Counted from the stretch's first letter, positions 36,067 through 41,610 are shown. The stretch is 46,199 nucleotides of DNA from Rhodothermales bacterium (GCA_022821385.1 JAJEDR010000006.1:1-46199), one strand, 5' to 3'. Program-made: numbers and translations. The notes: generated by a model from the letters alone, not told the origin.

Positions 36067-36127
36067 ATGGAAGGGGAATGTTCAGGAATTACCCCGCTGG
36101 AAGAGGAAACTTGTTCGGGGAGAAAAA
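36067..36127. other. leader region before the defence-like island
   Basis: No promoter matching a consensus is clear. A GGGGAG stretch at 36117-36122 lies right before the ATG of the small frame at 36128. Confidence 0.3.
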
Positions 36128-36331
36128 ATGAAAACACTCCACAGGGAACTGAATGCCCGACAGAGTCTAATTCGCCGAGCAGAAACAGTTAAAGGGAACT
36201 CCTGTAACACGTCGTCTTGCATGAGCTCACTCTACATGGTATGGTTCTCCTGCCGTTTTTTGGCTGGACCCAAAAGGAATACGAGATTTCTTGGTCTACG
36301 AATGAATTCTGTTGACATTACCCGAAAATGA
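36128..36331 (+). CDS. possible 67-residue basic protein coupled to the ATPase gene
   Basis: The ATG is preceded by GGGGAG at a good distance, and the stop overlaps the ATPase start (ATGA), an arrangement that suggests translational coupling. The product is basic with four cysteines (CNTSSCMSSLYMVWFSC) and resembles nothing I know. It could be a regulatory leader peptide, a small defence component or a chance frame; the A+T content is less biased than in the following genes. Treat as a candidate only. Confidence 0.35.
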   Translation: MKTLHRELNARQSLIRRAETVKGNSCNTSSCMSSLYMVWFSCRFLAGPKRNTRFLGLRMNSVDITRK

Positions 36332-37614
36332 AGATATCAAAACTGAAGCTTAAGAATATTAAATGTTTCAAAGACATTGAGATTTCGTTTGAGGATGACA
36401 AAGGTAGTATTAAGAATTGGTCTCTTTTCGTGGGAGATAACGGATATGGAAAGACAACTATTCTTAGAAGTATGGCTGTGGGGCTATGTGATAAAGAAGG
36501 CGCATCTGGGCTTTTGTTGGAATTACATGGAGAATATCTAAGACGGGGTGAAAAGGAGGGGACCATTGAGATAGACTTAAAGAGTGATGAAGACGAGCGT
36601 TTTACGATTCGAACTTCTATAAAGGTAAAGGGGGATAGCGAATCTGTTTCTCAGGAAGTAGAACCAGTTGGTGAGAGTAGTCGAGGCGAAACCAGAGACG
36701 CAGATTCAGATTCTGTAAGAGAAAGAGTTTTCGCAGCAGCATACGGTGCAGGCAGATCTATTACAGGTACAAAATCTTATGAGCAATATGCAACGGTTGA
36801 TGCTGTGTATACACTCTTTAACTATGAACATCCTCTGCAGAACCCAGAATTGGTGGCATTTAGGATTAAGATTGCTTCTGAGGATGAATGGGAAAAACTT
36901 AAAAACACATTAAAGAAAGTTTTGATGCTTCGTGATGACGTTAAAATTTCTCTGGAAAGAACGGGGTTATATGTTAAGACTAGCGGAGTAAAGGAATCTT
37001 TAAATTCTATGAGTGATGGGTATCAGTCATTGACTTCCGCTATACTAGATTTTCTAGGCTGGAATTTGATGTACAGGAAAGATGAAGATTTTGATTTAAG
37101 CAATCTTTCAGGAATTTGCTTCATTGACGAACTTGAACAGCACCTCCACCCAAGATGGCAGCGAAGTATCGTGAAAATTCTCTCAGAACAGTTTCCAAAT
37201 GTACAATTCATATGCAGTACGCACACTCCCATCTGTGCCTTGGGACTTGGCGATTTGGAAGGTGGGTCTTGGCTTTTCAAGACTCCTATTCCAGACGGAT
37301 ACAGCGATATTGATAGGTTCAATCTCCAAGAGGACTTCAAGGGTTACAGGGCGGATCAGATATTGACCTCAGGCATTTTTGATCTTACGGATACAAGGAG
37401 TATTTCCGTGGAAAGTAAACTGGAAGCGTATAGAGATATATATCTTAAGGAAGAAAGTCAAAGAAGTGAGAAAGAGAAGCAGAAGTTTCAGTCTATTGAA
37501 AATGAACTGAAGAACTTACCTATGTGGGACCACTTAGAAGATTGGCGGCAAAGGAAAAGGCTTATTGAGTTAATTGAAGGCCGTTACGAAATCAAAAGTA
37601 ATGATCAAGATTGA
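36328..37614 (+). CDS. ptuA-like: AAA family ATPase resembling Septu PtuA
   Basis: 428 residues. An SMC/OLD-type ATPase with Walker A GDNGYGKTT (36-44), a signature-like segment LNSMSDGYQSLTS (225-237), Walker B CFIDELEQHLHP (264-275; Asp267, Glu268) and the switch motif CSTHTP (296-301). The region between is poorly conserved, with an acidic insert at 84-130. The C-terminal 60 residues are helical and charged. In the Septu defence system PtuA is an ATPase that works with the HNH nuclease PtuB; here the next gene is an HNH nuclease overlapping this one. The gene is clearly more A+T-rich than its flanks, suggesting transfer. No Shine-Dalgarno is visible. Confidence 0.85.
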   Translation: MKISKLKLKNIKCFKDIEISFEDDKGSIKNWSLFVGDNGYGKTTILRSMAVGLCDKEGASGLLLELHGEYLRRGEKEGTIEIDLKSDEDERFTIRTSIKVKGDSESVSQEVEPVGESSRGETRDADSDSVRERVFAAAYGAGRSITGTKSYEQYATVDAVYTLFNYEHPLQNPELVAFRIKIASEDEWEKLKNTLKKVLMLRDDVKISLERTGLYVKTSGVKESLNSMSDGYQSLTSAILDFLGWNLMYRKDEDFDLSNLSGICFIDELEQHLHPRWQRSIVKILSEQFPNVQFICSTHTPICALGLGDLEGGSWLFKTPIPDGYSDIDRFNLQEDFKGYRADQILTSGIFDLTDTRSISVESKLEAYRDIYLKEESQRSEKEKQKFQSIENELKNLPMWDHLEDWRQRKRLIELIEGRYEIKSNDQD

Positions 37615-38350
37615 GCGTGGAAGCCCCCCTGCCGATACTGCTATGGACAGGAAAAGAGAAAGAGTGCTGCGGAAAATTAGGGAATTAGTAGGGTCTGGAA
37701 AATCAAACTCTACTAAGATTAAGTTCAATACATTATGGTCCGCGCCAGAAGTCAAAGATTTCCTGTACGAATCTCAACTTGGCAAGTGCTGTTACTGTGA
37801 AAGAAACCGAGACAAAAAAGAATTCGATGTAGAGCACTTTCGTCCCAAAGGCAAAGTTAAAGAAGCTGAATTAAATCATCCGGGTTACTGGTGGCTCGCC
37901 TATGACTGGGAGAACTTACTGATCGCCTGCAAGACATGTAACCAAAAGAAGAGCTCACATTTTCCGCTGAAGGACGAGAAAAACAGAGCCTACCTAGAAG
38001 ATACTGACCTTGGAAAGGAAGTACCTATTTTGATCAATCCCCTGAATGAAAACCCTGAGTTGTTTATAGACTACGATGTCAGAGAAACTGGACTTATGGT
38101 AAAGGCCATTGGAAGATGTGAACGAGGTGAGAATACAGTCAACGCACTGACAGGAATAAATGATAGAAAAGTGATGGAGGAAAGAAAAGGCAAACTCGAG
38201 GAATATGAGTTGATACGACGTTTATTGCGGAATGGTGGTAACGAATTATACTCAGCGGCAATTGAATTTATGCGAAAATATGTATCTCCTACCAGTGAAT
38301 TTTCAGGATTTGCAAAATTCTATTTTCGGAGGGAAGGATGTCTCCAATAG
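37601..38350 (+). CDS. ptuB-like: HNH endonuclease resembling Septu PtuB (TIGR02646-like)
   Basis: 249 residues from ATG 37601, inside the end of the ATPase gene (a TTG at 37574 is less likely). The Zn-finger HNH core reads C63-C-Y-C66, catalytic His79 in DVEHFRPKG, AYDWENLLIACKTCNQKK with C110/C113 and Asn114, and a final His120. This is the pattern of PtuB/TIGR02646 nucleases, which cut nucleic acids when the ATPase partner signals infection. The C-terminal helical half (about 150-249) is unassigned. It overlaps the next gene by 13 bases, so all four genes are likely one mRNA. Confidence 0.85.
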   Translation: MIKIERGSPPADTAMDRKRERVLRKIRELVGSGKSNSTKIKFNTLWSAPEVKDFLYESQLGKCCYCERNRDKKEFDVEHFRPKGKVKEAELNHPGYWWLAYDWENLLIACKTCNQKKSSHFPLKDEKNRAYLEDTDLGKEVPILINPLNENPELFIDYDVRETGLMVKAIGRCERGENTVNALTGINDRKVMEERKGKLEEYELIRRLLRNGGNELYSAAIEFMRKYVSPTSEFSGFAKFYFRREGCLQ

Positions 38351-39501
38351 AGGTTCCTTTCCGTGTAGAACAGCTTGATAGAACCCCAGCGTTTGTCTAC
38401 AATCTTGGTGAAGTAAAAAACAGAACAACTTTTCTTTCCGAGATAAAAAACAAATCCAACTGTAAAGTCTTTTATTCGACAAAGCCGTTACCTCTCTTAA
38501 GGATCTTGGAGGAAATGGAATCTCTGGAAGGATTTTCTGTAAGTTCTCTTTTTGAAGCTAGGCTGGCACAGAAAGCTTGCAAGAACAGGAAAGAGATTCA
38601 TTTTGTCAGCCCAGGGATTAGGAATGATCAATGGGAAGACATCTCAACTGCTGCCAGTTATTTAACATTTAATTCGTTAGAGCAGTTTTCATACTTTGAA
38701 TCTAAACTCGGCAAGCAAAGTTACGGGATAAGAGTGAATCCAGAAATCTCCTTTATTGAAGATCCCAGATACAACCCCTGCCGTGAATTTTCAAAGCTCG
38801 GTGTTCCCATTTCTCAGATCAATAACAAGATTTCCACCGACTCGGATTTTTTCAAAAAAATAGAGGGAATTCATTTTCACACGAACTTCGAAAGTAAAGA
38901 CTTCTCTCATTTAGCTGAGACATTGTCCAGACTAGAGATTGGACTCGCAGATCAGCTTAAACGGTTTAAGTGGATTAACTTGGGTGGCGGTTATTGTTTT
39001 GATGAGTCAAAAGACCTATCTCTTTTTTTTGGACTAATAGATGAACTTAATCACAGTTACGATTTCGGTGAAATTATTATTGAGCCTGGTAACTTTCTAG
39101 TCCGGGACTGTGGATTTCTGGTTTCTTCAGTTATTGATCTTTTTCGGAGGGATGGAAAATACATTGCTGTTTTAGACACTACCGTGAATCATCTTCCGGA
39201 AGTCTTTGAATACCAATACGAACCTGATGTTTGGGGAGATGCCTGCTCCAATAAGAACGAGTATATATTAGCAGGGAGCAGTTGTTTGGCAGGGGACGTT
39301 TTTGGCGTGTATCGCTTTGAGGATGAGTTGGCACTGGGTTCAAAAGTCATTTTTGAGAAAGTGGGAAGCTACTCTCTGGCTAAGGCACACATGTTTAATG
39401 GGATCAATCTTCCTGATGTTTACTGTCTTGAAGAAGATACTGGACTGAAAAGGGTAAAAAGTTTTACTCTTGAACACTATATGCACTATTACGGAGGATA
39501 A
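38338..39501 (+). CDS. nspC-like: PLP-dependent decarboxylase resembling carboxynorspermidine decarboxylase (NspC)
   Basis: 387 residues with a strong GGAGGGAAGG before the ATG. The fold-III PLP enzyme family is clear: Lys49 in FYSTKP as the likely Schiff-base lysine, YNPCREFSKLGV, GIHFH (177-181), INLGGGY, EPGN (249-252), DTTVNHLPEVFEY, and the closing SSCLAGDVFGVYRF with Cys316 and KAHMFNGINLP. These follow NspC step by step, but several usual residues differ (NFESKDF instead of the LCE block; no SRLG but SKLG). It would decarboxylate a diamine-type amino acid to a polyamine. Why it sits in an operon with an ATPase and a nuclease is not known. Confidence 0.82.
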   Translation: MSPIEVPFRVEQLDRTPAFVYNLGEVKNRTTFLSEIKNKSNCKVFYSTKPLPLLRILEEMESLEGFSVSSLFEARLAQKACKNRKEIHFVSPGIRNDQWEDISTAASYLTFNSLEQFSYFESKLGKQSYGIRVNPEISFIEDPRYNPCREFSKLGVPISQINNKISTDSDFFKKIEGIHFHTNFESKDFSHLAETLSRLEIGLADQLKRFKWINLGGGYCFDESKDLSLFFGLIDELNHSYDFGEIIIEPGNFLVRDCGFLVSSVIDLFRRDGKYIAVLDTTVNHLPEVFEYQYEPDVWGDACSNKNEYILAGSSCLAGDVFGVYRFEDELALGSKVIFEKVGSYSLAKAHMFNGINLPDVYCLEEDTGLKRVKSFTLEHYMHYYGG

Positions 39502-39504
39502 GTT

Positions 39505-40875
39505 ATGCGGTTTTTAGAAAGGGAACTGTCCTTCCCCAAGATCCAGGACAACAGAGATTTGCTGTCATATATTGAAGAGCAAACATCCTCCCATCTGAGC
39601 AAGGAAGGATTGCTACCTATAAGAATTTCTGTTACCGATAGCTCAGGTTCGTACTATAATTGCGAAGTCGGTGCTTTGCGCACGGAGGATACAAGCAGCT
39701 TTGAGGAAGCGAAGTTAGTATTTAAGTTTAGAAAGCGAAGGTTTGAAAACACAAAGTATTTCAATGTGGTTTTCTTGATTCCTACTGGAATTGGCTGCGA
39801 GATCGGGGGCCACGCAGGAGATGCTACACCGGTTGCAAGACTATTATCTTCAAGTTGTGATAACCTCATCACTCATCCAAATGTTTTTAATGCTTCCGAC
39901 CTCAATGAAATGCCTGAGAATAGTCTTTATGTTGAAGGGAGTACAATCTGTCGCTTGATGATGGGGACCGTAGGTCTGCAACCCGTAAGATCAAATAGAA
40001 TTCTTGTTATCATAGACAAAAATGAGCACGAAGTCTTTGAGAATGCGGCTGTTAATTCTGTCAATGCCGCCAGAGCAGTCTTGGGCATAACATGTTCCGA
40101 TGTGGTGAAATTAGATCCCTCAATAACTATGGAATCCAGATATTCCTCTTCCGAGAGAGCTGTCGGCACCATTGACGGGATTGATAATTTATTCTCCGTT
40201 TTGAAGAGGTACGAAGGAACATATGACGCAGTTGCCATCTCAACGACAATTGATGTTCCGAGGGAGTATCATACGGAATACTTTCGCCGTAGAGGAGAAA
40301 TGGTTAATCCTTGGGGAGGGGTAGAAGCCATGCTTACCCACGCTGTCTCCTACAAGCTAAACATTCCTTCGGCTCATTCCCCAATGTTTGAATCACCCAA
40401 AGTTGCTCATGAAGATCCTGGAGTTGTTGAAGCCAGAATGTCAGCGGAAGCCGTTTCCACAACCTTTTTTCACTGTGTCTTGAAAGGACTTCATAAAAGC
40501 CCCAAGATAATTACTGATCAGGCGGCGTTTCATTATGATGATATTATTTCGGCAAAAGACATTTCCTGCTTGGTCATTCCCGATGGTTGTTTAGGGCTTC
40601 CTACTCTGGCGGCTTTGAAACAAGGGATAAAAGTTGTGGCGGTAAAGGAAAATAAAAACCTGATGAGAAATGATCTTAACGAACTTCCTTGGAATACCGA
40701 ACAATTCATTAGAGTTGAAAACTACTTAGAAGCAGCTGGTGTTTTAAGCTCAATAAAGCAGGGCATTAATCCTCAATCAGTAAGACGGCCTTTTAAGACT
40801 TTGAATTTTGAAACATCAGATATTCCCCGTTATATTGAGCGCCAGAGTCCAAGTTTGAAACGAGTCAACGGGTAG
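39505..40875 (+). CDS. DUF3326-domain protein
   Basis: 456 residues, 3 bp after the decarboxylase stop and preceded by GGAGGATAAG. The hallmark is IPTGIGCEIGGHAGDA (92-107), with YVEGSTICRLMMG, NPWGGVEAMLTHAVSY, HSPMFES and VIPDGCLGLPTLAAL further on. I recognise DUF3326 from cyanobacterial proteins of unknown function; no reaction is established. Glycine-rich loops suggest a nucleotide or phosphate site (inference). The N-terminal 90 residues are a separate alpha/beta region. It is the last gene of the A+T-rich island. Confidence 0.75.
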   Translation: MRFLERELSFPKIQDNRDLLSYIEEQTSSHLSKEGLLPIRISVTDSSGSYYNCEVGALRTEDTSSFEEAKLVFKFRKRRFENTKYFNVVFLIPTGIGCEIGGHAGDATPVARLLSSSCDNLITHPNVFNASDLNEMPENSLYVEGSTICRLMMGTVGLQPVRSNRILVIIDKNEHEVFENAAVNSVNAARAVLGITCSDVVKLDPSITMESRYSSSERAVGTIDGIDNLFSVLKRYEGTYDAVAISTTIDVPREYHTEYFRRRGEMVNPWGGVEAMLTHAVSYKLNIPSAHSPMFESPKVAHEDPGVVEARMSAEAVSTTFFHCVLKGLHKSPKIITDQAAFHYDDIISAKDISCLVIPDGCLGLPTLAALKQGIKVVAVKENKNLMRNDLNELPWNTEQFIRVENYLEAAGVLSSIKQGINPQSVRRPFKTLNFETSDIPRYIERQSPSLKRVNG

Positions 40876-41010
40876 GTATCAGAAAAATGAATACTCCGCG
40901 GAACTTGGACAGCGGATTGGATCAAGGTGTTCCAATGATCAAATCCTCCGGCGCGCAACGTGGCTCACTTCTATCGGATTCAGTGGCCCACTTCGTCGGA
41001 ATTTGCATCA

Positions 41011-41436
41011 CTATTGATTGGGCTTGCTACCCTTTCCCTGTTCCCCGGTGGACCTTGGCTTTTGGGGGGTGACCGGTGGCTTAGGTGCTCCACCATTCTG
41101 TGGGTCTGGCTGGGATCCTCTGCTTCCAAAATAGAAACCAACCACAGCCCCGGCCACTCCTGCCAATGCACTGAGAGCCTCCACGAAGTACTTCAGATCG
41201 TCAGTCCCCCTGTATCCAGCGCCAAGTGCAGCAATAGCCATGAATGCACCCACGATAAGGAGTGCCAGCATCGAACGGACAGAACCCTTGGGGAGTCCGA
41301 GCCCCAATCCATTTAAGTCTATCTTACCATTGGACCTTCCCCTGGATTTGGACACCGCGATTGACGGGAGAAGAATTAACACTATGGCAAACAATATGCC
41401 GACGGCCCAAAGGAATGCTGTCTCGAAATTATTCAT
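41011..41436 (-). CDS. small membrane protein with Pro-rich tail
   Basis: 141 residues with three predicted membrane helices (about 7-28, 54-73, 83-105) and a Gly/Pro/Lys-rich cytoplasmic tail (QPDPQNGGAPKPPVTPQKPR). The segment GLPKGSVRSMLALLIVGAFM followed by GVAGAVVGFYFGSR is a pattern I have seen in uncharacterised bacterial membrane proteins. Function unknown. It is convergent with the DUF3326 gene and composed like the host, so it probably marks the right edge of the island. Confidence 0.65.
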   Translation of the reverse strand: MNNFETAFLWAVGILFAIVLILLPSIAVSKSRGRSNGKIDLNGLGLGLPKGSVRSMLALLIVGAFMAIAALGAGYRGTDDLKYFVEALSALAGVAGAVVGFYFGSRGSQPDPQNGGAPKPPVTPQKPRSTGEQGKGSKPNQ

Positions 41437-41610
41437 GGGCGATTGTGTGATTTGTTAACGAAATGTCGTGAAGGGCGATTGGTCTATCGGTTCATTCATT
41501 GTCTTGCCTTGGTCAGTGCTAGAAGCATTCTTGGGAACACGCGGATTGAATTCTCAACGCAACTCCGAACAGCCACCTGTCTCCACGGCGATGCATCTCA
41601 GCACTTGGCT

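Follow-up and report, generated by a model that had tools for sequence, protein, structure and literature searches.

A Septu subtype in which PtuA and PtuB share an operon with a decarboxylase and a DUF3326 protein

How Septu, the defence system composed of PtuA and PtuB, is restrained and triggered is poorly understood. The Walker A and B motifs of PtuA and the H-N motif of PtuB are required for defence by Septu EcB88, and tRNA-Tyr is cleaved by Septu upon infection (PMC13096335); the targets of PtuAB are tRNA-Tyr or DNA (PMC13096335, PMC11555353). In retron-Eco7, PtuAB is a toxin neutralised by a reverse transcriptase (RT) together with multicopy single-stranded DNA (msDNA) (PMC11555353). 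Here we analyzed PtuA- and PtuB-like genes that are followed by a decarboxylase gene and a DUF3326 gene in a 46,199-nucleotide stretch from a Rhodothermales bacterium (GCA_022821385.1 JAJEDR010000006.1:1-46199), the whole of which we call the window. In its anatomy, this PtuA-PtuB-decarboxylase-DUF3326 operon is almost certainly a distinct Septu subtype, mobile as a unit. Its genes are as follows (aa, amino acids; PLP, pyridoxal phosphate):

36328..37614, plus strand, PtuA-like ABC-type ATPase, 428 aa (PADLOC PtuA, E 7e-64; motifs)
37601..38350, plus strand, PtuB-like HNH nuclease, 249 aa from ATG (PADLOC PtuB, E 1e-53; TIGR02646; alignment)
38338..39501, plus strand, NspC-like fold-III PLP decarboxylase, 387 aa (TIGR01047; structural alignment)
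39505..40875, plus strand, DUF3326 protein, 456 aa (PF11805, E 1e-97)

A preliminary description of this DNA had read these as four overlapping or nearly abutting plus-strand genes of A+T-rich composition, and the open reading frames (ORFs) and base composition bear this out. PtuA and PtuB overlap by 14 bases (counted from the ATG), PtuB and the decarboxylase gene overlap by 13, and a gap of 3 bases separates the latter from DUF3326; the G+C content is ~0.39-0.44 over 36.0-41.0 kb versus ~0.50-0.54 in both flanks. PtuB likely starts at ATG 37601, while its longest reading begins at an alternative start, TTG 37574. The families named in that description, a Septu-like ATPase and HNH nuclease with an NspC-like decarboxylase and DUF3326, agree with the matches to PADLOC, TIGR01047 and PF11805.

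The first two proteins, their gene order and their motifs match PtuA and PtuB of Septu. PtuA displays a Walker A motif (GDNGYGKTT), a signature motif (MSDGY), a Walker B motif (FIDELEQHLHP) and STHTP, all kept in relatives linked to the decarboxylase-DUF3326 pair, and PtuB shows CCYCE, VEHFRPK, WENL and CKTCN in the alignment, with a TIGR02646 score of 52.6 bits against a cut-off of 52.15. The genes are adjacent, and by alignment both Walker motifs of PtuA and the H-N motif of PtuB are intact. We predicted from sequence that the PtuA-like ATPase is the sensor or regulatory subunit of the nuclease, and that the PtuB-like HNH nuclease is the effector. Unlike Septu as described, one PtuA clade has a decarboxylase and DUF3326 as a seemingly obligate addition. 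Retron-Eco7/Ec78 (type I-A) resembles this arrangement in that PtuAB is accompanied by a second module, but the window PtuA and PtuB reach only 124 and 55 bits against NCBIfam retron equivalog cut-offs of 500 and 150 bits. Pfam revealed no RT among the four genes, the sole other long-enough ORF of the surrounding insert (141 aa) had no Pfam match, and no msr-msd RNA was seen, the window having no Rfam match at the gathering score.

The check proposed earlier, whether the gene order is conserved across unrelated hosts, was run with a positive outcome. In 16 loci, which span at least six phyla, PtuA and/or PtuB lie immediately upstream of the decarboxylase-DUF3326 pair; the hosts are Rhodothermota/Bacteroidota, Dadabacteria, Planctomycetota, Neomarinimicrobiota, Alphaproteobacteria, other Proteobacteria and a metagenome-assembled genome (MAG) labelled Deltaproteobacteria. 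When four phylum samples were searched with PtuA as the starting point, two extra loci with a decarboxylase emerged (L138 and L210; compared loci are numbered with the prefix L), along with a third, L211, whose contig ends at PtuA. When compared with 64 PtuAs free of the pair, the 15 PtuAs linked to it formed one clade (SH-aLRT 99; 100/99 with selected outgroups). Within this clade the kind of decarboxylase changed at least four times while its position was kept, and a single NspC-type group was rejected (approximately unbiased test, p 0.002).

To follow the two enzymes outside Septu, we used a DUF3326 profile, which gathered 80 bacterial and 50 viral-contig loci beyond those from other searches. 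All 79 bacterial loci with enough sequence had a decarboxylase gene as the same-strand neighbour of DUF3326, in nearly every case immediately upstream; it was NspC-like in 36 and of the pyruvoyl AdoMet_dc family (PF02675, SpeD-like) in 43, and no locus had both. This constant neighbourhood, together with the conserved order and the PtuA clade, supports the earlier proposal of a Septu pair with an undescribed addition that may form one system; the small-molecule or modifying role suggested there for the two enzymes is a hypothesis. At least ten changes of decarboxylase kind were counted on the DUF3326 tree. That unrelated enzymes occupy one slot suggests that the reaction itself is what matters in the pair.

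In the viral set, the pyruvoyl kind was present in 41 loci and adjacent to DUF3326 in 37. Seven viral loci had neither an NspC-like nor a pyruvoyl gene: the partner was phosphatidylserine-decarboxylase-like in one (L090:7178-7900) and of the ornithine-cyclodeaminase family in three (L089:3939-4865 by test, L130 and L133 by visual likeness). The remaining three had no recognised partner. In the viral contigs L091-L132 (e.g., L102:9627-10984), DUF3326 is a short form that lacks the N-terminal 85 residues, and a SpeD-like gene usually accompanies it. The combination of short DUF3326 and SpeD-like gene was found on ~40 metagenomic viral contigs, and a DUF3326 tblastn search of plasmid and cultured-phage records gave no match.

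Genes for GspS (a glutathionylspermidine-synthase-like ATP-grasp protein) and/or DUF350 were found near 37 bacterial DUF3326 loci. In this they resemble the reported envelope-stress operons of PspA, DUF350, GspS and AdoMet decarboxylase, in whose description DUF3326 is not mentioned (PMC11237479); unlike the window operon, those operons involve no Septu genes. In another setting, a protein with cyclase and TPR domains is encoded upstream of the pair (L005:12098-13567, L015:135-1679, L066:7149-8855 and L074:45-1457); L066 also has GspS, and a PRMT-like methyltransferase gene lies beside the cyclase-TPR gene in L066 and L074. Because it occurs in GspS/DUF350 and cyclase-TPR settings, the decarboxylase-DUF3326 pair has a role beyond Septu. 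The preliminary description had stated what would speak against one system, namely the pair occurring elsewhere without an ATPase-HNH partner and the ATPase-HNH genes never occurring with the pair. The former was found, and is common, whereas the latter was not; as only the first half holds, simple cargo is unlikely.

A natural exchange of putative effectors was seen between two related Neomarinimicrobiota, L014 and L023. Their left flanks share 82% DNA identity over 3 kb, and similarity resumes ~200 bases into the decarboxylase gene; from there on, the operon is 83% identical, and the DUF3326 protein 93%. Between the shared segments, L023 carries PtuA-PtuB and L014 a 360-aa membrane protein. 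The family of the latter (360-409 aa where complete, with 4-5 hydrophobic segments) lies immediately upstream of the pair in six loci:

L014:7724-8806, L021:8257-9483, L025:58-1287, L032:3-791, L051:3-1193 and L059:8326-9525, membrane protein family members

Two members tested had no Pfam match, and the family had no PADLOC match. The divergence of effectors also exceeds that of the module, as PtuB is 44% and DUF3326 89% identical between L010 and L013. These comparisons point to a conserved enzyme module with putatively exchangeable effectors.

The operon lies in an A+T-rich insert of 5.4 kb, which also holds a minus-strand ORF:

36069..41513, no strand, operon-bearing insert between two ThuA-domain genes (L213 and L220 junctions)
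41011..41436, minus strand, ORF of 141 aa within the insert, with hydrophobic stretches (ORF list); no Pfam match and no known family

Two genomes of the same genus (L213 and L220) have an empty site, in which position 36068 is joined to 41514 with 32 bases between. The segment 36069-41513 is thus either an insertion in the window genome or a loss in L213 and L220. A third relative, L214, carries unrelated DNA at the same point between the ThuA-domain genes, so this spot seems to be a repeatedly used insertion hotspot. DUF3326 was present in 3 of 394 genomes sampled from the phylum; the six same-genus genomes within this draw had neither DUF3326 nor a match to the window PtuA. The operon's closest counterpart comes from a Dadabacteria MAG, with identities of 86% (DUF3326), 82% (decarboxylase), 70% (PtuA) and 69% (PtuB), and the operon has likely moved between phyla. 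The same decarboxylase-DUF3326 pair occurs in another Dadabacteria MAG (L008) from a different project, which argues against mis-binning of that pair. Promoter and terminator scans yielded no more than shuffled sequences did, and no convincing repeats were found at the insert ends.

The window decarboxylase matched TIGR01047 (NspC, carboxynorspermidine decarboxylase) with an E value of 2e-78, but its 264 bits lie below the cut-off of 409, as do the scores of all NspC-like genes of the pair in the other Septu loci. It aligns over its full length with the solved NspCs 9eaf and 3n29, as expected of a fold III PLP enzyme, and has K49 (the PLP lysine), H181, GGG216-218, EPG249-251, C316, D320 and Y345. 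What distinguishes the NspC-like family of the pair from the solved NspCs, besides the sub-cut-off score, is shared departures at N183 and E288. Within the window genome, AdoMet_dc was unmatched and nspC matched only the gene of the operon and one weak candidate; the genome thus has no second good NspC of which the operon gene could be a spare copy.

The SpeD-like partners in other loci all keep the self-processing residues S63, H68 and C83; 94% have D or E at position 71, and 4% have P there. True AdoMet decarboxylases are reported to keep a proline in this region without exception (PMC10407285), and position 71 may be the proline meant there. Phage homologues of the SpeD superfamily are ornithine decarboxylases (PMC9992855). 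In keeping S63, H68 and C83 and, putatively, in mostly lacking P71, the partners resemble SpeDC/SpeDA, the ornithine and arginine decarboxylases (PMC10407285, PMC9992855); those papers do not mention DUF3326, and the window partner differs in being of the PLP type. Ornithine is only suggested as a substrate of these SpeD-like enzymes, since the four SpeDC-diagnostic residues of PMC10407285 were not mapped with certainty. Catalytic residues are intact in all four families.

The DUF3326 protein scored 327 bits against PF11805 (gathering cut-off 25). The residues T94, D106, N126, N129, Y142, N164, N268, E274, H291, E315, Y407 and E409 are invariant, and we predicted DUF3326 to be an enzyme because such invariant polar residues are found in enzymes. 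The AlphaFold2 models (pLDDT, the predicted local distance difference test, 93 for the full-length protein and 90 for the short form) place two Rossmann-like domains after an 85-residue N-terminal alpha/beta part. One modelled domain resembles a GT-B nucleotide-sugar-binding domain and the other lumazine synthase, both with Z ~9-10, which is not decisive; the GT-B likeness is confined to 120-140 residues of a single domain and is tied with other folds. Foldseek found no match in PDB to the full-length model at E 0.001 or better, GT-B entries included, a sequence profile of DUF3326 against PDB returned nothing credible, and BFVD held no match. For the short form, Foldseek matches to phosphoribosyl pyrophosphate synthetase (6e-4 and 7e-4, template modelling score ~0.16) and, from ~0.003, to ornithine and putrescine carbamoyltransferases were not used as evidence.

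The best overall explanation is a Septu subtype whose PtuAB effector would be controlled by an amine-product module, and we give it an even chance of being right. PtuAB would be an exchangeable, potentially toxic effector, and the decarboxylase and DUF3326 would form a two-enzyme module that yields an amine-bearing product or places an amine tag on a target. The best-known reactions of these decarboxylase families act on conjugates, i.e., AdoMet, carboxynorspermidine and phosphatidylserine, which leads us to propose that an amino-acid conjugate is the product or the substrate of DUF3326 and is decarboxylated by the partner enzyme. DUF3326 may attach an amino-acid-like group to an acceptor such as a nucleotide or nucleic acid, the decarboxylase stripping the carboxylate; alternatively, decarboxylation may come first and the joining by DUF3326 second. 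By analogy with RT and msDNA in retron-Eco7, the amine product would restrain (or license) PtuAB, and the two enzymes would occupy the position of the restraining module there. We hold this restraining step with some doubt, slightly short of even. Infection would upset or remove the product, upon which active PtuAB would cut tRNA or DNA.

Several points weigh against this explanation. In L138 and L210, DUF3326 would lie past the visible DNA, which stops at a contig edge or close to it. Of the 15 PtuAs in the clade, 13 were found via DUF3326, so that the clade depends in part on selection for the pair. The pair is commoner without Septu (GspS/DUF350 operons and phage contigs), thus its reaction is not Septu-specific. 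In addition, the modelled fold of DUF3326 reveals no reaction.

Among the alternatives, it is unlikely that the operon is a modification and restriction system, in which the pair would add an amine-bearing group to host tRNA or DNA, PtuAB would cut unmarked molecules, and phage-borne pairs would serve as counter-defence. Such a scheme would fit with PtuABs that cut tRNA-Tyr or DNA (PMC13096335, PMC11555353), with the ~40 viral contigs carrying a SpeD-like gene and short DUF3326, and with a possible transferase-like two-domain fold in the DUF3326 model. However, DUF3326 showed no recognisable nucleic-acid-binding domain, and the pair is also present in operons of the envelope-stress type, where a nucleic-acid mark would have no obvious use. 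We consider it quite improbable that, independent of any control over PtuAB, the pair makes a polyamine-type metabolite attacking phage or cell, or depletes ornithine or arginine. This would leave unexplained why, among PtuAs, the pair is confined to a single clade, although both decarboxylase families are polyamine enzymes, phage SpeD relatives decarboxylate ornithine (PMC9992855), and an ornithine-cyclodeaminase-family gene replaces the decarboxylase at a viral DUF3326 locus. Chance cargo, that is, two unrelated functions on one mobile island, is very improbable: the pair is indeed widespread without Septu and the insert mobile, but the PtuA clade and the effector swap disfavour it, as do the fixed order of overlapping or closely spaced genes across the 16 loci and the replacement of the decarboxylase kind in a kept position.

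In the literature searched, which took in few subscription papers and no preprints, we found no DUF3326 in defence and no Septu with a decarboxylase, consistent with the earlier view that the combination is undescribed. We therefore regard the operon as a new subtype or variant of Septu, which would rank as a new class should several effectors turn out to be controlled by the module. More tentatively, and with rather less than even confidence, the loci may belong to an undescribed modular defence class with one two-enzyme metabolic core and plug-in effectors (PtuAB, the membrane protein with 4-5 segments and perhaps the cyclase-TPR protein), to which the short-form pair of phages would be a possible counter-measure. 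The four-gene operon, conserved across phyla, hints that a defence nuclease may be armed or held back in a manner not yet described. A Septu clade tied to two metabolic enzymes offers a route to the metabolite or modification that would control such a nuclease, and the replacement of PtuAB by a membrane protein in L014 relative to L023 points to a module with an exchangeable effector. DUF3326, a family also found in cyanobacteria, thereby gains a testable context.

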